A DNA stretch of 64,000 nt from Planctomycetia bacterium. GTDB taxonomy: Bacteria > Planctomycetota > Planctomycetia > Pirellulales > UBA1268. The position numbers were made by a program, and so were the translations under genes. The stretch covers positions 36,381 to 100,380 of the forward strand of contig BJHK01000012.1 of assembly GCA_014192425.1 (NCBI GenBank). Direction: 5' to 3'. This document shows, piece by piece, positions 1-59,424 of this stretch. Positions within the stretch are counted from its first letter, which is position 1. Every line of letters begins with the position of its first letter. The notes below the pieces were generated by a model. It searched no databases. It was not told the origin of the DNA and saw only the letters and a list, made by a program, of their open reading frames with translations.

Positions 1-559
1 GGGGTTGGTGCGCCAGCAGGAGCGGATGACGCGCCGTCAGGATGGGGGTGAGTTTCGCTACCGCTCGCTGCGCTCGATCCAGCACGCTCGCCATCCTCAC
101 ACCGACCCGGGCCTTCGGGGGTTGGTGCGCCAGCAGGAGCGGATGACGCGCCGGCGGGATGGGGGTGAGTTTCGCTACCGCTCGCTGCGCTCGATCCAGC
201 ACGCTCGCCATCCTCACACCGACCCGGGCCTTCGGGGGTTGGTGCGCCAGCAGGAGCGGATGACGCGCCGTCAGGATGGGGGTGAGTTTCGCTACCGCTC
301 GCTGCGCTCGATCCAGCACGCTCGCCATCCTCACACCGACCCGGGCCTTCGGGGGTTGGTGCGCCAGCAGGAGCGGATGACGCGCCGGCGGGATGGGGGT
401 GAGTTTCGCTACCGCTCGCTGCGCTCGATCCAGCACGCTCGCCATCCTCATGCCGACCCGGGCCTTCCGGGGTTGGTGCGCCAGCAGGAGCGGATGACGC
501 GCCGTCGGAATGGGGGTGAGTTTCGCTACCGCTCGCTGCGCTCGATCCAGCACGCTCGC
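1..559. repeat. 117-bp tandem repeat array (four full units plus a partial)
   Basis: Units start at 5, 122, 239 and 356, with a partial unit at 473-559, each beginning TTGGTGCGCCAGCAGGAGCG. The period is exactly 117 bp (39 codons). Units 1 and 3 share CGTCAGGAT and units 2 and 4 share CGGCGGGAT, so the array looks like a duplicated 234-bp dimer. The core CTCGCTGCGCTCGATCC followed by AGCACGCTCGCCATCCTCAC recurs in the intergenic array at 56725-56954. The array lies inside the open frame of the methyltransferase on the minus strand and continues past the left edge. Confidence 0.95.
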
Positions 560-1805
560 GATCGGCACGCGGCCGGATCGTGACTTCCAACAGCCGGCAG
601 GGAATCGAACCGTTGGCCAGCGGGACACGCTGCTCGGGACGGAGGCCGAGATGCTGCGCCGCCGGGGTGTCGGCGGCGAGAATCGCCGCGCGCCAGCCGC
701 CGCAGTGCCGCACCAGCCAGTCACCGATCCGCCGAAAGAGAGCGCCAGCTCGGGGCAGCGGCAGCCGCTCGCCGTACGGAGGATTCATCACGACGAGCCC
801 CGGCTCCGCCGGCGGCCGCACCTCCTCGAAGTGCCGCTTCGCGATCTGCACCACGCCCCCGACGCCCGCCGCCGCGGCGCAGGCCTGCGCCGCTTCCACC
901 GCCCGCGGGTCCAGGTCGCTCGCCACGAACGACCCGACCGGCATGCGGACGCAGGCCTCGAGTTCCGCCACCAGACGGGCGATCAGGTCGCGGTCGCGGT
1001 CACGGAACCGGCAGAAGCCGTGCGCCTGCCGCCGCGCCCGCCACAGGCCCGGTGCCATGCCCGCGGCGATCGTCGCCGCCTCGATGACGAGCGTGCCCGA
1101 GCCGCAGAACGGGTCGAGCACCGGCTCGCCGGTCGTGCCGGCATCGGGACTCCCCGGCCGCCACCAGCCGGCAATCGCCAGGATCCCCGCCGCGAGCACC
1201 TCCGAGAGCGGCGCCTCAACCTCGCCCATCCGCCAGCCGCGCTGGTGGAGCGAGCGGCCGGCCGCGTCGCGGAAGATCGTCGCCACGCCCCCCACGAGGT
1301 GCAGGGCCAGCCGCAGCGTCGCCCCGCGGAGCTGCACGCTCGGTCGCCGGCCCGACGGCGTCCGCAGTTGGTCGACGATCGCATCCTTCACGACCTGCGC
1401 GGCGTACAGCGAATGCGTCGTGAATGTGTCGTGGATCGCGGCATCGACGCGGAGCGTGTCCGACACCTTCAACTGTTCGGTCCAGTCCACCTCCTGCACC
1501 GCCCGGTAGAGCTCCTCGGGTGACGCGACCCGAAACCGGCCCAGCGGCTCGAGGACGCGGATCGCCGTCCGCGACTCGAGCACCGCCCGGTAGAGCGTCT
1601 CCTGCTCGGCGTTCGGGGCCGCCGAAAACTCGATCGTCCGCCGGCCGATCCGCAGGTCGCGGCCCCCAACGGCCTCCAGTTCTCGGGCCAGCACCCACTC
1701 CAGCCCCTCCAGCGTCCGCGCCGTCAGCCGCGCGGGCTCGTCGGCCACGGGCGCCGGCAGCGGCCGCGGCACCGGGGCCGGCGCTGGAAACATCGAATCA
1801 CTCAT
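1..1805 (-). CDS. rlmL: RlmL-like 23S rRNA guanine-N2 methyltransferase with C-terminal 39-residue repeat array (partial, runs off left edge)
   Basis: Translating the minus strand from the ATG at 1805 gives an open frame to base 1 with no stop (601 codons). Residues about 25-165 resemble the N-terminal and THUMP region of E. coli RlmL (TLEGLEWVLARELEAVGG, VKDAIVDQLR, HQRGWR). The class I methyltransferase core follows: DPFCGSGTL at 231-239 (SAM-binding loop) and NPPYGERL at 341-348 (catalytic motif of base N-methyltransferases). The recognisable domain ends near residue 410 (IPCRLLEVTIRP). From about residue 416 the frame enters the 117-bp DNA array and encodes a 39-residue Ser/Ala/Gly/Pro-rich repeat, probably disordered. 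In E. coli, RlmL is fused to a second methyltransferase, RlmK, just after this point, so the array could be an expanded linker or a read-through tail. Its start codon overlaps the stop of the decayed toxin upstream. The methyltransferase call is confident; the tail's role is unknown. Confidence 0.85.
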   Translation of the reverse strand, partial: MSDSMFPAPAPVPRPLPAPVADEPARLTARTLEGLEWVLARELEAVGGRDLRIGRRTIEFSAAPNAEQETLYRAVLESRTAIRVLEPLGRFRVASPEELYRAVQEVDWTEQLKVSDTLRVDAAIHDTFTTHSLYAAQVVKDAIVDQLRTPSGRRPSVQLRGATLRLALHLVGGVATIFRDAAGRSLHQRGWRMGEVEAPLSEVLAAGILAIAGWWRPGSPDAGTTGEPVLDPFCGSGTLVIEAATIAAGMAPGLWRARRQAHGFCRFRDRDRDLIARLVAELEACVRMPVGSFVASDLDPRAVEAAQACAAAAGVGGVVQIAKRHFEEVRPPAEPGLVVMNPPYGERLPLPRAGALFRRIGDWLVRHCGGWRAAILAADTPAAQHLGLRPEQRVPLANGSIPCRLLEVTIRPRADRERAGSSAASGSETHPHSDGASSAPAGAPTPEGPGRHEDGERAGSSAASGSETHPHPAGASSAPAGAPTPEGPGRCEDGERAGSSAASGSETHPHPDGASSAPAGAPTPEGPGRCEDGERAGSSAASGSETHPHPAGASSAPAGAPTPEGPGRCEDGERAGSSAASGSETHPHPDGASSAPAGAPT

Positions 1806-45790: not shown

Positions 45791-47299
45791 ATGAGCCAGG
45801 AATTCGCCAAGGCCGGCCGCAGTGCAGGGATCGTCGCTGAACCCGCCGTCCCGCCCCAGGCGGTCGATGCCGAGGCATTGGTCGTGTTCGTGACGGAAGG
45901 GGGCACCGGCGCAGGCGTGGCGGCGGCCGTCGACAAGGCGACCGGCGGCCTCGTGTCGCGGGTCGCGGCAAGTGGGGAATTTTCCGGGAAGCGGTACGAG
46001 TGCGTGCCGCTGCTGGCGCCCCCCGGCCTCGCGGCCGGCCAGGTGCTGCTCGTGGGGCTCGGCAAACGCGAGCAGGTCGATGCCGGCATCCTCTACCGGG
46101 CCGCGGCCATGGCGGCCCGGCACTTGGCAGGGCGGCCCCGGGGCCGGGTCGCGTTCCTCGGTGATGCCGGCTGGTCGGCAACGCTCGCCGAGCAGGCCGT
46201 GGCCGGGGCGGCGGTGGGAATGACCGGGCAAGACCTGTATCGTGCCGAGCGGCGCCGGACACCGTTCGGCACGACCGCCTGGGTCGGCCTGGCGCCGACG
46301 CTGGTGGCCTCGGGTACGGCGATCGCCGACGGAGTGAACCTCGCTCGCCGGCTGGTCAACATGCCCCCCGACGATCTGTATCCGGAGACGTTCGCCGCCG
46401 AGGCGGCGACGATCGCCGGCCGCACCGGCCTGGAGATCGAGATCTGGGACGAGGACCGGCTCCTCGCCGAGCGTTGCCGGGCGATCCTCGCCGTCGGCCG
46501 CGGGAGCTCCCGGCCGCCGCGGCTCGTGATCCTCAGGTACCAGGGGAATCGCCAGTCGGCCGCCGCGCTCGACCTCGCCCTCGTCGGCAAGGGGGTGACG
46601 TTCGATTCCGGCGGCCTGTCGCTCAAGCCTTCCGAGTCGATGCTGACGATGAAGTGCGATATGGCGGGGGGTGCGGCGGCCCTGGCCGCGGCGGCGACGA
46701 TCGCCTCCCTCGGGCTGCCGATCAACCTCGTGGCGGCGATCGGGCTGGTGGAGAACATGACCGGTCCGGCGGCCTACAAGCTCGGCGATGTGATCACGGC
46801 CCGCAGCGGGACGACGATCGAGGTTCACAACACGGATGCCGAGGGGCGGGTGGTGCTGGCCGACGTCCTCGACGTGGTCCGTGGCTTGCAGCCGCGGCGG
46901 ATCATCGATGTGGCGACGTTGACGGGCGCCTGCATGGTGGCGCTCGGCCACGACGTTGCGGGGTTGTTCACGAATGACCAGCCGTGGTGTGACGCGGTGG
47001 CGGCAGCGGCACGGTCGGTGGGGGAGCCGGTCTGGCAGCTGCCGATGTACGAGGAGTACGACGAGCAGATCAAGAGCGACGTGGCGGACATCAAGAACGT
47101 GGGCGACGGCCGGTGGGGGGGTGCGATCACGGCGGCGAAGTTCCTCGAGCGGTTCGTGGGCAAGATTCCCTGGACGCACATCGACATCGCCGGCCCCTCC
47201 TTCGCCGAGAAGCCGAAGCCCTGGACGGATGGGGGTGGGACGGGCGCGATGGTGCGCGCGTTCGTGGAACTCGCCCGGAATGCGACCACGAAAGCATGA
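45791..47299 (+). CDS. pepA: Leucyl aminopeptidase (M17)
   Basis: 502 residues, the normal size. A dizinc or dimanganese cytosolic exopeptidase that releases N-terminal residues. Active-site segments are present: GKGVTFDSGGLSLKPSESM near 264, KCDMAGGAAALAAA near 287, NTDAEGRVVLADVLD near 346 and ATLTGACMVALGHDVAG near 376. The last 24 codons lie inside the first unit of a 261-bp tandem repeat, so three more copies of the gene's 3' end follow downstream without the rest of the gene. It is probably co-transcribed with the MMPL gene. Confidence 0.95.
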   Translation: MSQEFAKAGRSAGIVAEPAVPPQAVDAEALVVFVTEGGTGAGVAAAVDKATGGLVSRVAASGEFSGKRYECVPLLAPPGLAAGQVLLVGLGKREQVDAGILYRAAAMAARHLAGRPRGRVAFLGDAGWSATLAEQAVAGAAVGMTGQDLYRAERRRTPFGTTAWVGLAPTLVASGTAIADGVNLARRLVNMPPDDLYPETFAAEAATIAGRTGLEIEIWDEDRLLAERCRAILAVGRGSSRPPRLVILRYQGNRQSAAALDLALVGKGVTFDSGGLSLKPSESMLTMKCDMAGGAAALAAAATIASLGLPINLVAAIGLVENMTGPAAYKLGDVITARSGTTIEVHNTDAEGRVVLADVLDVVRGLQPRRIIDVATLTGACMVALGHDVAGLFTNDQPWCDAVAAAARSVGEPVWQLPMYEEYDEQIKSDVADIKNVGDGRWGGAITAAKFLERFVGKIPWTHIDIAGPSFAEKPKPWTDGGGTGAMVRAFVELARNATTKA

Positions 47300-48258
47300 C
47301 AGCAAGCAGGAAGTCGGGCGCCGGCGTGGGGGCGGCAAAAGTCTCGTCGCTGAGGCAGGATAGCCTCACGCTCCTCGACCGTTTGCCGACCCCCTCGCCT
47401 CCTCAGCACCACCGGGAGCCGGGCTCTGCCCGGCGACCGAAAACCGGAGCAGACGCTATGTCGGCTGCGACGGCGCGAAAATCAGCCGGATGGGGGTGGG
47501 ACGGGCGCGATGGTGCGCGCGTTCGTGGAACTCGCCCGGAATGCGACCACAAAAGCATGACAGCAAGCAGGAAGTCGGGCGCCGGCGTGGGGGCGGCAAA
47601 AGTCTCGTCGCTGAGGCAGGATAGCCTCACGCTCCTCGACCGTTTGCCGACCCCCTCGCCTCCTCAGCACCACCGGGAGCCGGGCTCTGCCCGGCGACCG
47701 AAAACCGGAGCAGACGCTATGTCGGCTGCGACGGCGCGAAAATCAGCCGGATGGGGGTGGGACGGGCGCGATGGTGCGCGCGTTCGTGGAACTCGCCCGG
47801 AATGCGACCACAAAAGCATGACAGCAAGCAGGAAGTCGGGCGCCGGCGTGGGGGCGGCAAAAGTCTCGTCGCTGAGGCAGGATAGCCTCACGCTCCTCGA
47901 CCGTTTGCCGACCCCCTCGCCTCCTCAGCACCACCGGGAGCCGGGCTCTGCCCGGCGACCGAAAACCGGAGCAGACGCTATGTCGGCTGCGACGGCGCGA
48001 AAATCAGCCGGATGGGGGTGGGACGGGCGCGATGGTGCGCGCGTTCGTGGAACTCGCCCGGAATGCGACCACAAAAGCATGACAGCAAGCAGGAAGTCGG
48101 GCGCCGGCGTGGGGGCGGCAAAAGTCTCGTCGCTGAGGCAGGATAGCCTCACGCTCCTCGACCGTTTGCCGACCCCCTCGCCTCCTCAGCACCACCGGGA
48201 GCCGGGCTCTGCCCGGCGACCGAAAACCGGAGCAGACGCTATGTCGGCTGCGACGGCG
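47228..48258. repeat. 261-bp tandem repeat, four units, including the pepA 3' end
   Basis: Units begin GATGGGGGTGGGACGGGCGC at 47228, 47489, 47750 and 48011, an exact 261-bp period (87 codons). Each contains the last 72 bases of pepA including its stop. It also contains a GC-rich spacer (TCGCTGAGGCAGGATAGCC, GAGCCGGGCTCTGCCCGGCG) and the module GCAGACGCTATGTCGGCTGC. Copies 2-4 are virtually identical; copy 1 differs at an A/G in the pepA tail (ACGAAAGC against ACAAAAGC). No new gene is evident in the array. Open frames on both strands arise because the period is a multiple of three. Confidence 0.95.
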
Positions 48259-49040
48259 CGACAGCCAGCCAATCGCCCAAGCCGCCGGAAGACGGCAGAA
48301 GTCGCGTCGCTGAGGCGAGGATACGCCTCACGCTCCGCGTCCTTCCGCCGATCTCCCGGCTTCGTCAGAGCGCACGTGCAGCACCCCAAGCCGGGCGGTA
48401 GCCCGGCGCCGGAGCCGGGCTCCGCCCGGCGACCGCAAGCCGGAGCAGACGCTGTGTCGGCTGCGACGGCGCGAAAGGCAGACGCTGTGTGGGCTGCGAC
48501 GGCGCGACAGCCAGCCAATCGCCCAAGCCGCCGGAAGACGGCAGAAGTCGCGTCGCTGAGGCGAGTATACGCCTCACGCTCCGCGTCCTTCCGCCGATCT
48601 CCCGGCTTCGTCATATCACGCGTGCAGCACCCCAAGCCGGGCGGTAGCCCGGCACCGGAGCCGGGCTCCGCCCGGCGACCGCAAGCCGGAGCAGACGCTG
48701 TGTCGGCTGCGACGGCGCGAAAGTCAGACGCTATGTCGGCTGCGACGGCGCGACAGCCAGCCAATCGCCCAAGCCGCCGGAAGACGGCAGAAGTCGCGTC
48801 GCTGAGGCGAGGATACGCCTCACGCTCCGCGTCCTTCCGCCGATCTCCCGGCTTCGTCAGAGCGCACGTGCAGCACCCCAAGCCGGGCGGTAGCCCGGCG
48901 CCGGAGCCGGGCTCCGCCCGGCGACCGCAAGCCGGAGCAGACGCTGTGTCGGCTGCGACGGCGCGAAAGTCAGACGCTGTGTCGGCTGCGACGGCGCGAC
49001 AGCCAACGCGCCAGCCAACGCGACAGCCAACGCCATGGCG
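48259..49040. repeat. 246-bp tandem repeat, three units, plus short terminal repeats
   Basis: Units start CGACAGCCAGCCAATCGCCC near 48259, 48505 and 48751, a period of 246 bp (82 codons). Each unit includes hairpins such as CCGGGCGGTAGCCCGG and GCCGGGCTCCGCCCGGC. It ends with the same GCAGACGCTGTGTCGGCTGC module as the 261-bp array, which is duplicated at each unit end. After the third unit a short repeat (CAGCCAACGCG) follows to about 49033. No gene is supported here. Confidence 0.92.
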
Positions 49041-49304: not shown

Positions 49305-51122
49305 TCACAAGAGCGTGCCCAGCTCGTCCACGAGCGCGCCGAACCGCGTGAGCGCGATTGCGACTGGCTCCGGCCGCTCCAGATCCACGCCCGCATCGCG
49401 GAGCAGGTCGAGCGGCCACTTCGACGAGCCGCCGCGCAGGAAGCCGAGGTAGGCGTCGAGGGCGCCAGGTTCGCCGTCCGCCACCTTCGTCGCCAGCGTG
49501 ATCGCAGCCGCTAGTCCCGTGGCGTACTTGTAGACGTAGAACGCGTTGTAAAAGTGCGGAATCCGCAGGCACTCGAGCTCCAGTTGCGGATCGACGATGA
49601 ACCGGGGGCCAAAGTAGGCGTCGAGCAGCTCGCGATACAGGCCGCGGAGCCGCTCCAGAGTCAGCGGCTCCCCCGCCTCCGCCGAGGCGTGGCTGCGCCG
49701 CTCGAACTCCGCGAACATCGTCTGCCGGACGATCGTCGCCCGGATCGAATCGATCTCGCGGGAAAGGATCGCCGCCCGGGCCTGGGGCGACTCGGCCCGC
49801 CGCAGCAAGAGCCGGGCGAGCAATTGCTCGTTGAACGTGCTCGCCACCTCGGCCACGAAGATCGTATAGCCCGAATACTGGTAGGGCTGCGCCTCGGCCG
49901 AGTAGCGGGTGTGCATCGAATGCCCCGCCTCGTGGGCCAGGGTAAAGACGTGCTCAATCACCTCCGGCTGGAAGTTCATGAGGATGTAGGGGTCGGAATC
50001 GTAGGTGCCGGAGCTGAACGCCCCCGACTGCTTGCCGGCGTTCGGATAGCGGTCGCACCACCGGCCGCGGAGCCCCTGCTCCAGCCTCCGGCAGTAGTCG
50101 CCGCCGAGCGGCGCCAGCGACTCGACCACCACGGCCACCGCCTCGTCCCAGGTGTACCGCTGCTCGAGCTCCGGTACGAGGGGCACGTAGCAGTCGTAGT
50201 GGTGGATCTCATCGAGGCCGAGGATCCGCCGCCGCAGGTCGTAGTAGCGGTGCACCGTCGGCAGGTGGGCGCGGACGGCCGCGGTGAGCTGGTCGTAGAC
50301 CGCCAGCGGCACGTTGTCCTGGAACAGCGCCGCCTCGGCGGCGGTGGGGTAGTTTCGCACCCGGGCGGAGTAGACGTCGCGCTCGACGGAGCCCGAAAGC
50401 GTGGCGGCCAGCGTGTTGGCATGGGCCTCGTACTGGGCGTAAAACTGGTGGAACGCGTCCCGGCGCACGGCCGGCACCGTGTCGTGGAGAAGCGTCGTGA
50501 ACGTGGCGTTGGAGAGCTCGACCGTCTCCCCCTTCCCCGTGGCGATGCTGCCGAACTTCAGGTCGGCGTCGGTGAGCTGGCGAAACACCTTGCCCGCCGT
50601 GCCGGCGAACGTCCCCTGCATCGCCAGCAGCCGCTCCTCCGGCTCGGAGAGCGTGTGGGCCCGGGTGCGGACGAGCCGCTCGATGAGCAGCCGGTAGGGG
50701 GCGAGCACCGGCAGTTCCACCCAGGCGGCGAGCGCGGCCGGCGGGATCGTCATGATCTCGGGCCGGATGAAGCTTGCCGCCTCGCCGGCCCGCGTGGCGA
50801 CGTGCTGGAACCGGCCCGCCATCCGCTGCGCCTCGGGGGCGGCCTGGTCCTCGCTGGCCCGGAGGTGGGCGTAGGTGCCGATCCGGTCCCCCGCACGATC
50901 GACGGCGAGGTCGTAGGCCAGGCATTCGGCGAGCCGTTCGGCCGACGAGCCGAGCGTGCCGGCAAAGGGGGCGAAGCCGGGTATCAGCTTTTCCCATGCC
51001 GCGAGGGCGGATTCCCACTCTGTATCGCCGGCGAACAGGCTCGCCAGGTCCCAGGTGTCGCCGACCGGCACCTCGCTGCGGGCGGGCAGTCTCCTCGTCG
51101 TCGCCGTCTCGCCGTCGCTCAT
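49305..51122 (-). CDS. pepF: Oligoendopeptidase F (M3 family)
   Basis: 605 residues, typical for PepF. A zinc endopeptidase of the cytosol that cleaves short peptides. The active site HEAGHSMH is at residues 397-404, preceded by FQPEVIEHVFTLA. The third ligand region FVAEVASTFNEQLL follows near 424. An N-terminal helical domain has TWDLASLFAGDTEWESAL near 25. The C-terminal DAYLGFLRGGSSKWPLDLL is also conserved. Its start is 20 bases after the stop of the fabH-like gene, so they may be co-transcribed. Confidence 0.95.
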   Translation of the reverse strand: MSDGETATTRRLPARSEVPVGDTWDLASLFAGDTEWESALAAWEKLIPGFAPFAGTLGSSAERLAECLAYDLAVDRAGDRIGTYAHLRASEDQAAPEAQRMAGRFQHVATRAGEAASFIRPEIMTIPPAALAAWVELPVLAPYRLLIERLVRTRAHTLSEPEERLLAMQGTFAGTAGKVFRQLTDADLKFGSIATGKGETVELSNATFTTLLHDTVPAVRRDAFHQFYAQYEAHANTLAATLSGSVERDVYSARVRNYPTAAEAALFQDNVPLAVYDQLTAAVRAHLPTVHRYYDLRRRILGLDEIHHYDCYVPLVPELEQRYTWDEAVAVVVESLAPLGGDYCRRLEQGLRGRWCDRYPNAGKQSGAFSSGTYDSDPYILMNFQPEVIEHVFTLAHEAGHSMHTRYSAEAQPYQYSGYTIFVAEVASTFNEQLLARLLLRRAESPQARAAILSREIDSIRATIVRQTMFAEFERRSHASAEAGEPLTLERLRGLYRELLDAYFGPRFIVDPQLELECLRIPHFYNAFYVYKYATGLAAAITLATKVADGEPGALDAYLGFLRGGSSKWPLDLLRDAGVDLERPEPVAIALTRFGALVDELGTLL

Positions 51123-53938: not shown

Positions 53939-56665
53939 TCACCTGAGCCTGGATTTCGCCACGCCCTCGCGCTCCCGTGCGCGGCGGCGGAAGTAGACGA
54001 AGAAACCGACCACGAGCGGCGGGATCGGCGGCAGCAGCACGGCGAGCCACTTCTGCCTGTCCTGCTCGCGTCGCACCGTCGCCTCGAGCCCGCGCTCGAC
54101 CACGCCGACGTCCCGGTCGCGCTTGAGCCGCAACTGCTCGATCTTGGTGTCGAGCTTCCGCTGTTCGAGCCGCTGCTGGCTGGCGAGCTGCTGGACCGCC
54201 CGCATCGCCGCCTGCGGGTCGGCGTTCTCGGCGTTCCGCAGGTCATTGATCTTCTTCTCGAACTCGCCGATCTTCGCCTGCATCGCCGCACTGGCCTCCT
54301 GCTCCGCCTGCTCGGCGATCGACACGAACTTGTTCCGCTCCGCCTCGGCCTCCGCCCTGGCGGAAGCGACGGCCTCCTCGATCCGCTCCAGCGTCCGGTG
54401 CTTCGGCTTCCGCTTGCGGATCTCGACGAATTGGTCGTCGCCGGCGAGCGTGTCGAGGACGTTGAGCACGAACGTCACATTGTCGAAGTCGAACCCGAAC
54501 ATGTCGTCGCCCCGGGTCCGCAGCCCGAAGAACACGGCCGAGAGCAGGTCGATGTCGGCCACGACCACCGCCCGGACCGGCTTGGCGTCGGCGCCGCCGT
54601 CAGGCTTGCGGTCGACGGCCACCGCCAGCACGAACGGCTCCGTCCCCGGCTTCTCGAACGCCCGGAGCATGCGCGTGTCCTGCCGTTGCAGCGCCTGCTC
54701 CGCCTTGTCGAAGTCGATCGTGCCCGCCCTGGCGCCGGTGCGGACCAGCGGCGACCACGCCACCTCCGCCCCCCCCTCCTTCACCAGGCTGCCCGGGAAG
54801 GGAAACAGCACCTCCTGCAGCCCGGCCACGGCCGGCTGCTTGGCGTTGAAGCCCCCCTGGCCGTCGGCGCCGAGGCTGGCGTCGATGAACACGAACTCGT
54901 TCTCGAGCGTCAGTTTCGGGTGCGGGTTGTAGTCCTGGTAGACGATCGACGGTGCGGCGCCCATCTGACCCATCGCTGGCCGGCCGGCCCCGCTGGCCAG
55001 CCGCACGCCGAGGGCCTGCCAGAGCTGGCCCAGATCACCCTTGGGCTGCCCCTGCGGGCCGCCGAACATCGCCCCCATCGGCCCCATCGGGCTGCGGCGC
55101 GGCTGCGACGTCCCGGGCACGCCGGGCATCATCACCGGAAATGGATCCTCGAAGATCGCCACCGGCTGCCCCGCACGCACGGCGGCCACGAGGTTCGGCA
55201 TCTGCTCCGGACCGAGCGACGACGGCTGCACAACCAGGAGCACGTCATACGTCTCCTTGATCGGCGCCGAGGCGTCTACCTGGACCACGTCGTACTGCTT
55301 CTCCAACTCCTCCACGAGCGGCTGCCGGGGCCGGGGCTGGCCGCTCATCATGTCGAAGCCGCCGAACAGGTCGGCGTCGGTGGTCACGAGGCCGAGCCGC
55401 TTCCGCTTCTGCTGGGCCACCGTGCTGATCGAGCGGATGAGCTCGTATTCCACCGGGGTGCCGCGGTCGAAGAACGGCACCACGACCTTCTCCAGACCGC
55501 TCGTGAAGGCACAGCCGAGAAAGATCTCCTCGTCGTTGCGGTACGTGCCACGGACCCGTGACACCACCCGTTGCGGCTCGATGCCGAACTGGGTGCTCGC
55601 CAGCGCCGCCGCGTCGGTCCGCGGCTCGGTCTCGATCACCTCGACGTTCACCTTGCCCCGGCCGAGCTGCTTGAACTGCCGCAGCATCGACAGCAGGTTG
55701 AGGCGAACCTGGGCGTATTCCTCGGGGACGGTCGGGCTGACGTACGCCTTGATGTCGATCGGCCGCTCCAGCCGGGCGAGCAGCGTCCGCGTGTCGGGGG
55801 CGAGCGAACTGATCTGCTCCGCCGACAGGTCGGCCCGAAGGTCGAAGGCCCGGAAGAAGAGCACCGCTCCGATCGCCGCCGCGGCGATGCCGAGCGTGCG
55901 GGCGAGATAGTGCAGCCCCATGCCGCCGGCCTCGCGCCGGCCGGTCCAGTGCCGCCGGCCGATGAGAACCATCGCCGCATACAGACAGACAGCGACGATA
56001 CCGAGGAAGTAAGCGATCGACGACAGGCTGACCGCGCCGCGGCCGAAGTCCACGAAGTGCTCCACCAGGCTCCAGCCCCGGACCTTCTCCGCCAGCCGCG
56101 GCCCCATCACGGCGCTCGCCTGGTGGGCCAGCGCCAGCGGCGCGTTCAAGAGCAGACCGAGGACGAAGCCAACCGTGAGGTTGTTGGTGAGGAAGCTGGC
56201 CACCATGCCGACGGCGACCATCGCCAGGCCGGTGAACCAGTAGCCGAGATAGTTGGCGAGGAACAGGCCGCCGTCCGGCGAACCCCAGAGGAGCAGGAAG
56301 ATCAGGTTGCAGATCGCGGAAAACAAAAGCGCGACCGTAAAGATGCCGACGGCGGCCAGATACTTGCCGAACACCACCTCCCAATCACTCGCCGGGATCG
56401 TCAGCAGCAGCTCGTCGGTCCCCTGCCGGCGCTCCTCGGCCCAGACGCTCATCGTGATCGCGGGGATGAACACGAGGAGGATGTACGGCAGGTAACGGTT
56501 GAGCTGGTCGAGGTTGGCGAGGTTGGAGCTGAAGAACTCCGGCGGCCAGAAGGCGGCCAGCGACCCGAGCAGGACGAACACGCAGATGAAGACGTAGCCC
56601 GTCGGGTTGGAGAAATAGGCGACGAAATTCCGCTTGAACACGGCATCCAGAACGTGCCACTTCAT
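53939..56665 (-). CDS. GldF-GldG fusion: ABC-2 permease joined to a substrate-binding-like domain
   Basis: 908 residues. The first 240 residues form an ABC-2 permease with six membrane segments (GYVFICVFVLLGSLAAFW, YLPYILLVFIPAITMSVWAEE, VALLFSAICNLIFLLLWG). A further membrane segment near 262 begins the GldG-like part (LSSLAPDTRTLLARLERPID, VNVEVIETEPRTDAAA, YDVLLVVQPSSLGPEQMPNL), followed by a Gly/Met/Pro-rich insertion. A long coiled coil at about 785-870 and a C-terminal membrane helix (WLAVLLPPIPPLVVGFFVYF) end the protein. In Bacteroidetes GldF and GldG are separate. Here the fusion pairs with the ATPase encoded upstream. Confidence 0.85.
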   Translation of the reverse strand: MKWHVLDAVFKRNFVAYFSNPTGYVFICVFVLLGSLAAFWPPEFFSSNLANLDQLNRYLPYILLVFIPAITMSVWAEERRQGTDELLLTIPASDWEVVFGKYLAAVGIFTVALLFSAICNLIFLLLWGSPDGGLFLANYLGYWFTGLAMVAVGMVASFLTNNLTVGFVLGLLLNAPLALAHQASAVMGPRLAEKVRGWSLVEHFVDFGRGAVSLSSIAYFLGIVAVCLYAAMVLIGRRHWTGRREAGGMGLHYLARTLGIAAAAIGAVLFFRAFDLRADLSAEQISSLAPDTRTLLARLERPIDIKAYVSPTVPEEYAQVRLNLLSMLRQFKQLGRGKVNVEVIETEPRTDAAALASTQFGIEPQRVVSRVRGTYRNDEEIFLGCAFTSGLEKVVVPFFDRGTPVEYELIRSISTVAQQKRKRLGLVTTDADLFGGFDMMSGQPRPRQPLVEELEKQYDVVQVDASAPIKETYDVLLVVQPSSLGPEQMPNLVAAVRAGQPVAIFEDPFPVMMPGVPGTSQPRRSPMGPMGAMFGGPQGQPKGDLGQLWQALGVRLASGAGRPAMGQMGAAPSIVYQDYNPHPKLTLENEFVFIDASLGADGQGGFNAKQPAVAGLQEVLFPFPGSLVKEGGAEVAWSPLVRTGARAGTIDFDKAEQALQRQDTRMLRAFEKPGTEPFVLAVAVDRKPDGGADAKPVRAVVVADIDLLSAVFFGLRTRGDDMFGFDFDNVTFVLNVLDTLAGDDQFVEIRKRKPKHRTLERIEEAVASARAEAEAERNKFVSIAEQAEQEASAAMQAKIGEFEKKINDLRNAENADPQAAMRAVQQLASQQRLEQRKLDTKIEQLRLKRDRDVGVVERGLEATVRREQDRQKWLAVLLPPIPPLVVGFFVYFRRRAREREGVAKSRLR

Positions 56666-56724
56666 GCTTTCATGTCCTCCGTTGTCCGTGCCGCCGCCCT
56701 GCCACCGGGCTGCTGTCCTGCCCC

Positions 56725-56954
56725 GCTGCGGGACGGCATGAGTTGTCTCGCTGTGGCTCTCGCTGCGCTCGATCCAGCACGCTCGCCATCCTCACGCCGA
56801 TCCCTCCGCTGCGCAATCCGACAGACGCCTCCCCATGCCGCTGCGGGACGGCATGAGTCGCCTCGCTGTGTCTCTCGCTGCGCTCGATCCAGCACGCTCG
56901 CCATCCTCACGCCGATCCCTCCGCTGCGCGGTCCGTTCGCCGCGACCGTGTCAT
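56725..56954. repeat. 115-bp tandem repeat (two units) related to the left-edge array
   Basis: Two units, starting GCTGCGGGACGGCATGAGT at 56725 and 56840, each carry CTCGCTGCGCTCGATCC, then AGCACGCTCGCCATCCTCAC, the core of the 117-bp array at 1-559. Here the repeat is intergenic, between the ABC ATPase gene and the GldF-GldG gene, and the period (115 bp) is not a multiple of three. The 304-base gap 56666-56969 holds nothing else I can support. Confidence 0.9.
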
Positions 56955-56969
56955 GACTGTCGGTCATGA

Positions 56970-57710
56970 TCATGCCGACCGCGTCAGTTCGTGGAACCGG
57001 TCGTCGAGCGACCGCCCCTCACGACGCAGGTCGGCGGGCGGGCCGTCGAACCGCAGCCGGCCGTCGGCGATGAGGATCACGCGGTCGGCCAGCGCCTCGA
57101 CTTCTTGAAGGATGTGGGTCGAGAGCAAGATCGTCTTCTGTTCGCCGAGGCGGCGAATGGTCTCGCGAACCTCGCGGATCTGGTTGGGATCGAGGCCGCT
57201 CGTCGGCTCGTCGAGGATCAGCACGTCGGGTTCGTGGAGCAGCACCTGGGCCATGCCGACACGCTGCCGGTAGCCCTTGGAAAGCTTGCCGATGGCCTTG
57301 CCGATCACGCTCCCCAGTTCGCACTGCCGGATCACCTTCTCGACCCGCTCGCGCTTCCGCTCCCGCGACATCCCCCGGGCGTCGGCGAAGAACTCGAGCA
57401 GGCTGCGCGGCGTCATGTCGGGATAGAGCGGCCCGTTCTCCGGCAGGTAGCCGAGCCGCTCGGCACCCGCCAGCCGGTCCGTGGCCATGTCGTGGCCGGC
57501 GATCCTCGCCCGGCCCGACGACGGGGCGAGATACCCGGTGAGGATCTTCATCGTCGTGCTCTTGCCGGCGCCGTTGGGGCCGAGGAAGGCGACGATCTCG
57601 CCGCGGGGAATGCGAAACGACACGTCCTCGATGGCGATGAATTCGCCGTAATACTTGCAGAGCCGGTCAGCCTCGATCATGGCCGCGGACGGATGACTCA
57701 CTGCCGTCAT
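56970..57710 (-). CDS. ABC transporter ATP-binding protein (GldA-like)
   Basis: 246 residues from the ATG at 57710; upstream in-frame starts add unconserved sequence. Walker A GPNGAGKSTT at about 43-52, signature LSKGYRQRVGMAQ near 140, Walker B VLILDEPTSGLDP near 160 and switch His STHIL near 195 are all present. It would energise the GldF-GldG permease, forming an ABC-2 exporter. The two genes are separated by the 304-base repeat-bearing gap, yet still point the same way and may be transcribed together. Confidence 0.92.
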   Translation of the reverse strand: MTAVSHPSAAMIEADRLCKYYGEFIAIEDVSFRIPRGEIVAFLGPNGAGKSTTMKILTGYLAPSSGRARIAGHDMATDRLAGAERLGYLPENGPLYPDMTPRSLLEFFADARGMSRERKRERVEKVIRQCELGSVIGKAIGKLSKGYRQRVGMAQVLLHEPDVLILDEPTSGLDPNQIREVRETIRRLGEQKTILLSTHILQEVEALADRVILIADGRLRFDGPPADLRREGRSLDDRFHELTRSA

Positions 57711-57822
57711 GGTGTTCAGACGCTGGAGGGGAGGCGGGCGGGAAGCCGAACCGCTGAATGATAGCCGCGGCAGCGGCGACCATGCAAACCCCCCGGCCCG
57801 GTTGGCGCGAGGCCGCCGAACG

Positions 57823-59424
57823 CTATTCGCGGAACTCGGTATCCACGGCCTGCGTCCGGTAGAGCGGCGCATGGCGGTAGTAGACCTCGAGGATCAATGT
57901 CGCCAGCGACGTGGTGTAGAGCCGGCCGGCATGGCCAACGTGGCCGCCCGACACACCGACGTACCAACTGCCCGCCTCGTGGCCGTTCTTGGCCTGCGTG
58001 GAGAGCAGCAAGGCCTTCATCTTGTTGTTCCAGGCGATCCACGCATCCCCCTCCATGTGATGCATCACCTGCGTGGCGTAATAGTCGAAGTAAAGATCCG
58101 TGTTGGGGCCCTTGTCGGAGAGTGTCTTCACACCCCGCTGCAGCGACGGGTGGTCTTTCTTCCAGCCCAGATACATCCGGCAGAGCAGACCCACGGCCGT
58201 CGTCCCGGCGCCCGGGGCCGCGGGCGAGGTGTAGCCATAGCCCGCCCCGCTGTCCGACGACACCGAGTCGAGGAAATCGGAGGCCTTCTTGATCGTCAGC
58301 GGCCTGACCTGCAGGTAGCCCATGTGCCCGCTCTTCAGCGCCATGACCTGCCAGCCGACAGCCGACGTGTCGCCAGGCTGCTTGGGCTTATACCGCCAGC
58401 CTCCGCCGACCGGATCCTGGGCGTCCATGATGAAGTCGAGCGCGTACTGCGCAGGTTGCCTCAGAGCGTCGTCCTGCGACATGGCGAAGGCCTCCGCGAG
58501 CACGATGCCGCATAGCCCTTGCACGTAAAGGCCGTGGCCATCGATTTCGTACATCTGGCCTTGCTGCGCCATCGACTGCGCGGCGAGCACTTTCAGGCCG
58601 GCCTTGATCTGCGACTTGTACGGACCCTCCATGTGCGTGTAGCCACGGCCGAGAAACGGCAACAGGGCCAAGCCGGTGGCTCCGAACCGGTCCCCATAGT
58701 TGCCTGGATTCGCGCACTTCCCATTGCAGTTCGGACACTTGCCATGGTCGAAACTCCACGACCCATCGGGCATCTGGTGCTCGGCCAGCCACTTGAGCGC
58801 CGCATCCACGGCCGCTTCCGTGTCGGCACCGCCGCCGCCCCCCGCCGCCGCCTTGCCAGGATTCTTCCGCCCGCCGAGACCCGTGCTCGTGCCTCCTGCG
58901 GCGCCGATGCTCGAGAGGATGTCGCTCGCCGGAGCGGTCTGATCGCCGAAGTCGGTAACCTCGAGCGCCAGGGGCGCCGCCTCCAGGTCGCTCGCGTCAG
59001 ACGCTACCTCCACGTTCGGGATCACCACGTCCGTCGTCGCCACCTCCGTCGTCGTCTCCACGTCCTGCTCCGGATTCGGCGTCTCGTCCTTGAAATCCTC
59101 CACCGGCACATCCGACTCCGGACCCATCGACACAATCTCACGCGGCTTCGGCTTCTCGTCCGGCTTGTTCACGATCAACGCCAGCATCAACAGGAGCACG
59201 ATGTGGACCAGCATGCTCACCGCCCATGCCGGCGCCTGCTTGAGCATCGCCGACGTGTCGACGAAGCCCCCCCCCTCCTCCTCCTCGGCCGGCTCGGCAC
59301 CCCCCGCCGGTTTCAACGGCGGCTTCGCCAGCGGAACCCGCTGACCGGCCTGCGGCTGGCCGGCCGGGGGCTTCGGACGCGCACCGGGCTTCGGGTTCGG
59401 CACGGGGTCGGTCGTTTTCGACAT
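57823..59424 (-). CDS. Prenyltransferase/squalene-oxidase-repeat protein with TonB-like N-terminus
   Basis: 533 residues. The N-terminus is Pro/Lys-rich and is followed by one membrane helix (AWAVSMLVHIVLLLMLALI near 67-85) and an acidic Pro/Thr linker, as in TonB-like anchors. After a Gly-rich region, residues about 205-520 form alpha/alpha-barrel repeats with QxxxGSW-type signatures (QMPDGSWSFDHG, QDPVGGGWRYKPKQPGDTSA, GAGYGYTSPA) and a CPNCNGKC cluster near 230 that could bind metal. Planctomycetes encode many such proteins; none has a firmly known reaction. The C-terminus (LYRTQAVDTEFRE) is echoed by a fragment upstream at 59465. Confidence 0.8.
   Translation of the reverse strand: MSKTTDPVPNPKPGARPKPPAGQPQAGQRVPLAKPPLKPAGGAEPAEEEEGGGFVDTSAMLKQAPAWAVSMLVHIVLLLMLALIVNKPDEKPKPREIVSMGPESDVPVEDFKDETPNPEQDVETTTEVATTDVVIPNVEVASDASDLEAAPLALEVTDFGDQTAPASDILSSIGAAGGTSTGLGGRKNPGKAAAGGGGGADTEAAVDAALKWLAEHQMPDGSWSFDHGKCPNCNGKCANPGNYGDRFGATGLALLPFLGRGYTHMEGPYKSQIKAGLKVLAAQSMAQQGQMYEIDGHGLYVQGLCGIVLAEAFAMSQDDALRQPAQYALDFIMDAQDPVGGGWRYKPKQPGDTSAVGWQVMALKSGHMGYLQVRPLTIKKASDFLDSVSSDSGAGYGYTSPAAPGAGTTAVGLLCRMYLGWKKDHPSLQRGVKTLSDKGPNTDLYFDYYATQVMHHMEGDAWIAWNNKMKALLLSTQAKNGHEAGSWYVGVSGGHVGHAGRLYTTSLATLILEVYYRHAPLYRTQAVDTEFRE

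Follow-up and report, generated by a model that had tools for sequence, protein, structure and literature searches.

The repeat inside the rlmKL gene of this planctomycete and the repeat between two of its ABC transporter genes contain copies of one palindromic element, and this element is dispersed through the intergenic spacers of related genomes. It is probably a REP-like palindromic family, without a RAYT, that has been captured in one permissive protein linker. The starting point was the window (the whole stretch of 64,000 nucleotides that was analysed), in which the original prediction had proposed a core of about 40 bp common to an array at 1-559 (array 1) and another at 56725-56954 (array 2). 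Both arrays are real.

The history that fits best can be sketched as follows. The element would be a REP-like palindrome of one planctomycete family, the single strand of which folds to a long hairpin whose irregularities are conserved and whose inner hairpin is exchangeable. It would have spread through intergenic spacers, often just past stop codons, presumably as a folded single-stranded DNA intermediate, and would have piled up in tandem at some places. A single entry, in an ancestor of much of the group, would have placed it in an open frame in the flexible linker between RlmL and RlmK. There it would have been tolerated and inherited, and would have decayed in some lineages. In the window genome the rlmKL element would then have multiplied in tandem as 39-codon units. 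The rlmKL copy may stay palindromic by exchange or conversion with intergenic copies, or by selection on the structure, rather than through any importance of the peptide, which could well be functionless.

Arrays of the window and the palindrome around their core

The features are given by window position:

1..563, minus strand: array 1, in the rlmKL linker; Tandem Repeats Finder period 117 bp (39 codons), 4.8 copies
31-116, 148-233, 265-350 and 385-463: matches of array 1 to the covariance model, 27-33 bits
3..1880, minus strand: rlmKL, comprising the RlmL half (ferredoxin-like, THUMP, UPF0020 methyltransferase) and the start of the repeat linker
47322..48181, minus strand: array 3a, four intergenic element copies with period 261 (47322-47398, 47583-47659, 47844-47920, 48105-48181), 48.6 bits each
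48282..48852, minus strand: array 3b, three intergenic element copies with period 246 (48282-48360, 48528-48606, 48774-48852), 57.9-58.4 bits
53939..56665, minus strand: ABC permease/auxiliary gene downstream of array 2 (Pfam ABC_transp_aux, ABC2_membrane)
56666..56969, no strand: non-coding spacer between the ABC ATPase and permease genes, which holds array 2
56723..56929, minus strand: array 2, between the ABC genes; Tandem Repeats Finder period 115, 1.8 copies
56723..56809, minus strand (the sense strand): full element copy of array 2, scoring 85.9 bits with covariance model R1, partly by construction because the copy belongs to the training set of R1
56838..56924, minus strand: second full element copy of array 2, 81.8 bits, outside the training set
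56970..57872, minus strand: ABC ATPase gene upstream of array 2 (Pfam ABC_tran)

A 28-nt core (CTCGCTGCGCTCGATCCAGCACGCTCGC, three mismatches or fewer) occurs at seven sites in the window, five in 1-563 and two in 56723-56929, and the count expected from 100 dinucleotide shuffles is 0. Across the genome the core (27 nt, three mismatches or fewer) is found at nine places, all of them on contig C12 and only in arrays 1 and 2. A 36-nt version has no exact match in the genome-contig collection, which possibly does not hold this genome's own records. Could the two arrays, which are 57 kb apart, then have arisen without any mobile family, through plain tandem duplication and gene conversion between them? 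Confinement of the exact core to these arrays speaks for it. However, family-wide dispersal, covarying stems and a 5' tag (see below) already contradict it as a sufficient account, and it is hardly credible. The core makes up one half of an imperfect palindrome of 64-128 bp, which forms a long hairpin. The dispersed family of the original prediction therefore exists as far as the whole palindrome is concerned, but the two arrays are the only places with the core of about 40 bp; a whole-genome search with it finds nothing elsewhere, yet the palindrome that encloses it is widespread. The larger element came to light when BLAST with array 2 gave further short matches in two blocks, which, read out, proved to be whole imperfect palindromes that differ in their inner part. 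BLAST with both arrays recovered only the nearest copies, and a loose pattern search returned mostly chance matches (41 rows vs 13 in a control).

Array 1 occupies the short linker that joins the RlmL and RlmK enzyme domains. The RlmK half of the gene lies to the left of the window. Both halves match the one bifunctional family NF008748 (23S rRNA methyltransferases RlmL and RlmK), one over profile positions 5-377 and the other over 408-701 of its 704, although each half, as a fragment, scores under the whole-protein cut-off. In relatives rlmKL is a single open reading frame. The array continues leftward past the window start, from C12:36186 onward, over an assembly gap of ten Ns, and the sequence there contains further units and one full-form copy (C12:36186-36267). 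The run of ten Ns (C12:36371-36380) is just left of window base 1 and inside the rlmKL array. The reading frames that flank the gap both encode the identical 39-residue repeat. It is likely that rlmKL of the window genome is one open reading frame across the gap, whose letters are N and whose array copies are therefore uncounted. The units of array 1 are diverged, partial copies of the element in which the hairpin is mostly gone; folding of a single unit gives a z-score of +0.62, a non-significant hairpin.

Array 2 contains full copies. One of them, folded as single-stranded DNA, has a z-score of -0.17, and a short element copy has -1.83. The site in the ABC operon is common to the window genome and two relatives, G008 and G011; the spacer holds one copy in each relative and two in the window genome. 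A 103-aa open reading frame built from array 2 (56662-56973, minus strand) meets both ABC genes through ATGA overlaps. Nevertheless, array 2 was rejected as coding sequence. The frame has a codon-usage score of -25 vs about +53 for an equal length of permease, and stop codons interrupt it in both G008 and G011, in the spacers orthologous to this one.

A third tandem array in the window (47226-49005) consists of seven more copies of the same hairpin element. It lies between convergent genes, those around array 3b being 45791-47299 (plus strand) and 49305-51122 (minus strand). The array periods are thus 117 in coding sequence and 115, 261 and 246 in non-coding sequence. Period length had been proposed as a means of telling coding from non-coding copies, and the periods do not separate the two because 261 and 246 are also multiples of three. 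The length of the element serves better (see below).

On the rlmKL-sense strand the hairpin folds in a fixed order. Inward from an outer stem lies a bulged T, then a second stem that contains a G.T pair, then a GA/A internal loop. A further short stem leads to tandem mismatches (GA/GA) and a closing GC/GC, beyond which the inner part is variable and often a hairpin of its own. Sheared tandem GA mismatches are stable in both DNA and RNA. Covariation was assessed in 14 copies, namely seven loci of the window genome reduced to six rows and eight rlmKL linkers of relatives. Sliding one arm by 1-3 columns leaves 32-41% of the cells paired, compared with 93.2% in the structure itself; the latter figure is partly by construction since the structure was read off the same sequences. 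This does not apply to double changes, and 12 of the 22 stem pairs show changes on both sides. None of 500 shuffles reaches the main covariation measures. The identity among copies is not one of shape only, as it extends to the loops and internal loops. An Rfam scan of ten loci at E <= 5 gave three weak, unrelated matches, none of them at the element.

The element also has a tag. Once duplicate flanks are removed, 90 of 126 copies have NNAG at the 5' foot of their sense strand; for comparison, 6 of 126 have it at the opposite foot, and the remaining offsets give 3-13 of 126. The GNAG form accounts for 68 copies (GGAG 41, GCAG 15, GTAG 8) and CGAG for another 13. In addition, the sense strand folds better than the antisense strand in 87 of 91 distinct copies (from 110 rows) as RNA and in 82 of 91 as DNA, a comparison in which 71 of the 94 G.T cells come from one single column pair and in which R1 had been trained on the same copies and strands.

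Dispersal between genes and the transposase search

Covariance model R1 was run over 60 genomes with 59 candidates scored per genome, which makes the resulting counts lower bounds. The element is present in at least 28 of the 60, and all of these belong to the same family (28 of its 37 genomes). At least 19 of the 22 genomes of the genus carry it, the window genome included, as do at least 9 of the 15 from other genera of the family. The same search found it in none of the 23 genomes from other families of the order. Copies can be numerous: G012 has 81 matches at E <= 1e-4 when 150 candidates are scored, and the window genome has 36 matches at E <= 1, five in array 1 and 31 places elsewhere. 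A degenerate pattern of the element found 56 stretches in the genome-contig collection and none in viral contigs. The stretches come from records titled as planctomycete MAGs or from the same contigs as in the family search, with one set titled Candidatus Kuenenia and two titled bacterium. Several MAG records titled Candidatus Kuenenia stuttgartiensis carry the element together with the same contigs as genomes of the window's genus, and these titles look wrong. Elsewhere in the window genome two or three copies lie close together at C2:238042-238581, C10:11378-11974 and C4:30318-30623. Perhaps these are dimers or the result of tandem growth, as in REP clusters.

Where do the copies lie relative to genes? 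Genes were predicted from open reading frames scored by a codon usage trained on 25 long frames of the window. In the window genome 29 of 30 element loci are outside predicted genes, and the sole exception is rlmKL. In relatives, 70 of 70 copies from eight genomes and 30 of 30 from five more overlap predicted genes by 20 nt or less, in samples that favour high-scoring copies. The 70 are taken from 110 rows and leave out rlmKL copies, rows of the window and matches below about 33 bits. As a positive control, the same gene finder places nine of nine rlmKL copies inside the gene. Other predicted genes contain no copy (0 of 100 in relatives, 0 of 29 in the window genome). Mapping the copies against genes, as had been suggested, thus confirms that the family is essentially intergenic (29 of 30 loci in the window genome and all 100 copies in relatives).

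Stop codons lie just upstream of many copies, which raises the possibility that the copies are hairpins of an attenuator or terminator type, placed at the ends of genes and alike in shape through convergence. The spacers of the first sample are in keeping with it, as co-directional (46) and convergent (15) ones dominate the 70; 4 are divergent and 5 are at contig edges. However, the second sample of 30 has 7 divergent spacers (7 co-directional, 12 convergent, 4 contig edges). Both orientations occur, and relative to co-directional genes they are mixed (25 same and 21 opposite in the first set, 3 and 4 in the second). No T run is visible after the element foot, and the sequence identity in loops and internal loops goes beyond mere shape. 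Convergent terminators are therefore a very unlikely explanation. Taken with the foot tag and the strand-specific hairpin, the lack of a favoured direction of transcription is what would be expected as the trace of a folded single-stranded DNA intermediate, and the element may have moved in this form.

Does the element have a transposase? Among the 60 genomes, 36 carry at least one Y1_Tnp gene. The element is near none of the 19 Y1_Tnp loci that were fetched (49.3 kb searched, in MAGs that are incomplete), and Y1_Tnp has no match in element-rich genomes such as G012 and G026. On present data a RAYT link of the element is rejected, given both the 19 loci and the rich genomes without Y1_Tnp. In the window genome and in G030 a Y1_Tnp gene is flanked instead by inverted copies of an unrelated palindrome with GGTGCCAGCCACCAAATCTGGG arms:

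C4:109796-110605 in the window genome (G000): Y1_Tnp locus flanked by this palindrome
C143:16543-17348 in G030: Y1_Tnp locus flanked by this palindrome

The Y1_Tnp gene of the window genome scores 73.7 bits with the model for REP-associated tyrosine transposases, just under the cut-off of 80. Pieces of the Y1_Tnp-linked palindrome at E <= 0.001 number 37 in G030, 67 in the window genome and 3 in G022, counts that include both arms and both strands and so are not copy numbers.

A comparison of orthologous spacers gave no clean empty site. The element is absent from G015 at two of the four loci compared, and there the whole spacer differs. Spacers with and without the element are otherwise unalignable.

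Copies in the rlmKL linker

Thirty rlmKL loci were fetched, and L121, L111 and L112 were left out for want of a complete linker. This leaves 27, each with a linker that is complete or, in the window genome, gapped. Ten of the 27 have a confident element; its place and frame never vary, and the strand is always the sense strand. In G010 there is an additional copy on the contig that carries the end of the RlmL part. The copies of nine relatives are 80, 89, 119 or 122 nt long, all 2 modulo 3, a length class to which 27 of 75 dispersed copies belong. The 17 genes without a confident element have linkers of 24-70 codons, and therefore the element supplies extra coding sequence. To this extent the suggestion that the repeat created new coding sequence was borne out, since the rlmKL copy is in frame and missing from relatives without the element. 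The invasion, though, is no recent event in the window genome. Capture in rlmKL appears to be old, since the element recurs at one position, strand and frame in 10 of the 27 rlmKL genes from related species, and only the tandem expansion in 117-bp units is a trait of the window genome itself.

Was there one capture or several? On a tree of the two rlmKL domains the presence of the element is patchy. This is one of three observations that would suit a linker serving as a permissive landing site, with several independent REP-like insertions each surviving in the sole tolerable frame. The others are that inner hairpins vary among rlmKL copies and that the same linker of G030 (L116), which belongs to another genus, contains a different palindrome. 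This linker lacks the main element and is an inverted repeat of the Y1_Tnp-linked family, in frame and with a folding z-score of -7.07. Judged by sequence, the rlmKL linker is thus a place that holds two unrelated palindromes in different lineages. However, the strand and frame of the main element are always the same, although most dispersed copies have more than one open frame (among 86, sense +1 is open in 77 and sense +0 in 71). Flanking residues (ASRDR.., NSYRPGADGA) are common to relatives. There are also remnant-like residues in the linkers of G009 and G018 and a weak covariance-model match in L108, and the remnants would speak for an old capture followed by decay. Repeated insertion therefore seems unlikely, and the element probably entered rlmKL once. 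Folding z-scores of whole linkers, from +0.92 to -3.85, separate those with the element poorly.

The captured copies appear to have gone on behaving as nucleic acid. In the ten rlmKL copies alone 94.5% of cells are paired and 9 of 22 pairs have changed on both sides, which 0 of 500 shuffles reach. In eight of eight pairs the enzyme domains diverge more at third codon positions than the element does (0.21-0.46 vs 0.00-0.30), the pairs being overlapping ones from nine sequences and the stretches 27-41 codons long. For G017 and G005 the values are 0.00 in the element vs 0.21 in the domains, and the rest of the linker is also under the domains here (0.11 vs 0.21). First and second positions in the element differ equally or more, so that the usual excess of silent changes is missing.

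One way to read this is that the hairpin in the rlmKL message is a functional RNA or DNA element, which controls rlmKL itself or serves the RlmKL enzyme as a target for binding or modification, with the dispersed copies as offshoots. Compensatory change inside rlmKL and conserved third positions speak for it. It is also suggestive that the sole coding site found is a gene for an RNA-modifying enzyme that acts on rRNA, and Rfam gives no match that favours any known element. Against this, 17 of the 27 rlmKL genes lack a confident copy, intergenic copies are far more numerous and lie in either orientation, and the tandem units of the window genome have mostly lost the hairpin. A functional hairpin is thus improbable, more so than repeated insertion.

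The preferred reading of a captured, formerly intergenic palindrome would accommodate the missing silent excess if sequence is exchanged with intergenic copies. The inner hairpins offer a clue. The coding copies of G017 and G005 have a long one, and that of G015 has a short one, with 42 nt less and nearly unchanged flanking stems. Intergenic copies of G017 have CGGCTATCCTGCCG loops, which the short hairpin of G015 (GGGGCTATCCTGCCCC) resembles. Likewise, the inner loop of array 2 matches that of the window genome's own rlmKL copy, and the orthologous ABC-spacer copies of G008 and G011 carry a different one. Exchange of inner hairpins between loci would explain both the swap in G015 and the loop that array 2 and rlmKL share; independent change to a similar inner sequence is the weaker alternative. 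Perhaps the linker is even a live resident of a mobile palindrome family, partly rewritten again and again by exchange with non-coding intergenic copies. It would then be a segment under nucleic-acid rules within the gene of an essential-type enzyme and a recurrent docking site for unrelated palindromes. This larger picture is a tentative one that we consider possible rather than probable.

Many linkers (L095-L099, L102 and L105) have, upstream of the element, a proline-rich stretch that ends in QVEGR-like residues. On the other strand it reads CCxTTCGACCTGG and is possibly the remnant of another repeat.

Relation to known palindromic elements

The element works like a REP and, where it is coding, like a Rickettsia palindromic element (RPE). 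In the parts of Di Nocera et al. (2013; PMC3733652) drawn on here, REPs are short, dispersed palindromes tagged with GTAG or CGTC, mostly intergenic and arranged in tandem or in pairs. They are occasionally found inside genes, including those of RNA-modifying enzymes, and members are reported in Planctomycetes (PMC3733652). The element is likewise a short, mainly intergenic, dispersed palindrome with many copies, some of them in tandem, and with a tetranucleotide at its foot that resembles such a tag. However, the corresponding sections on REP structure give a stem of 7-20 nt with a small loop and an optional second stem across a short bulge (PMC6006769), and tags that are mainly GTAG (PMC3733652, PMC6006769), with GGAG and GTGG as variants. 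The element does not follow the stem rule, with its 64-128 nt, its stem of 22 pairs that several internal loops interrupt, and its variable inner hairpin. Its tag is mainly GGAG, GCAG or CGAG, with the canonical GTAG in 8 of 126. No transposase gene is flanked by it among the 19 Y1_Tnp loci, and it has one identical coding site in many species. It is set apart from classical REPs because it departs from their stem rules, shows no RAYT link at the loci searched and has a tag that is only GTAG-like.

RPEs, as far as described in the portions of PMC10969869 and PMC3733652 used here, are palindromes of about 100-150 bp that lie in frame in protein genes and also between genes. By this description they resemble the element, which is in frame in a protein gene (rlmKL, 10 of 27) and also intergenic. 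RPEs occupy many unrelated genes (PMC10969869, PMC3733652). The element is set apart from them because it was found in one gene only (130 dispersed loci plus rlmKL); the phylum differs too. Enterobacterial intergenic units of the RU/ERIC type also supply in-frame coding sequence according to the sections of Delihas (2007; PMC2759123) drawn on here. They differ in sequence and host, and those sections describe no conserved insertion in an interdomain linker with continued hairpin covariation.

The literature searched contains no paper on the element or on repeats in the rlmKL linker. REPs inside genes and RPEs are known already, and what the rlmKL locus bears on is whether such a copy is a fossil or is still connected to its dispersed family. 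It is useful here that one locus provides aligned coding copies, aligned intergenic copies and element-free sister genes, which allows capture to be traced along with retention of the frame, compensatory change and exchange. The family also adds a well-covarying, tagged hairpin, for which no transposase of its own kind was found, to a bacterial group with few known repeat families.

Palindromes linked to RAYTs, as set out in the relevant part of PMC6006769, form a strand-specific hairpin that has a guide tetranucleotide on its 5' side. The element appears to share both the strand-specific hairpin and the 5' tag. However, the RAYT-like gene of the window genome and that of G030 are flanked by the other, unrelated palindrome.
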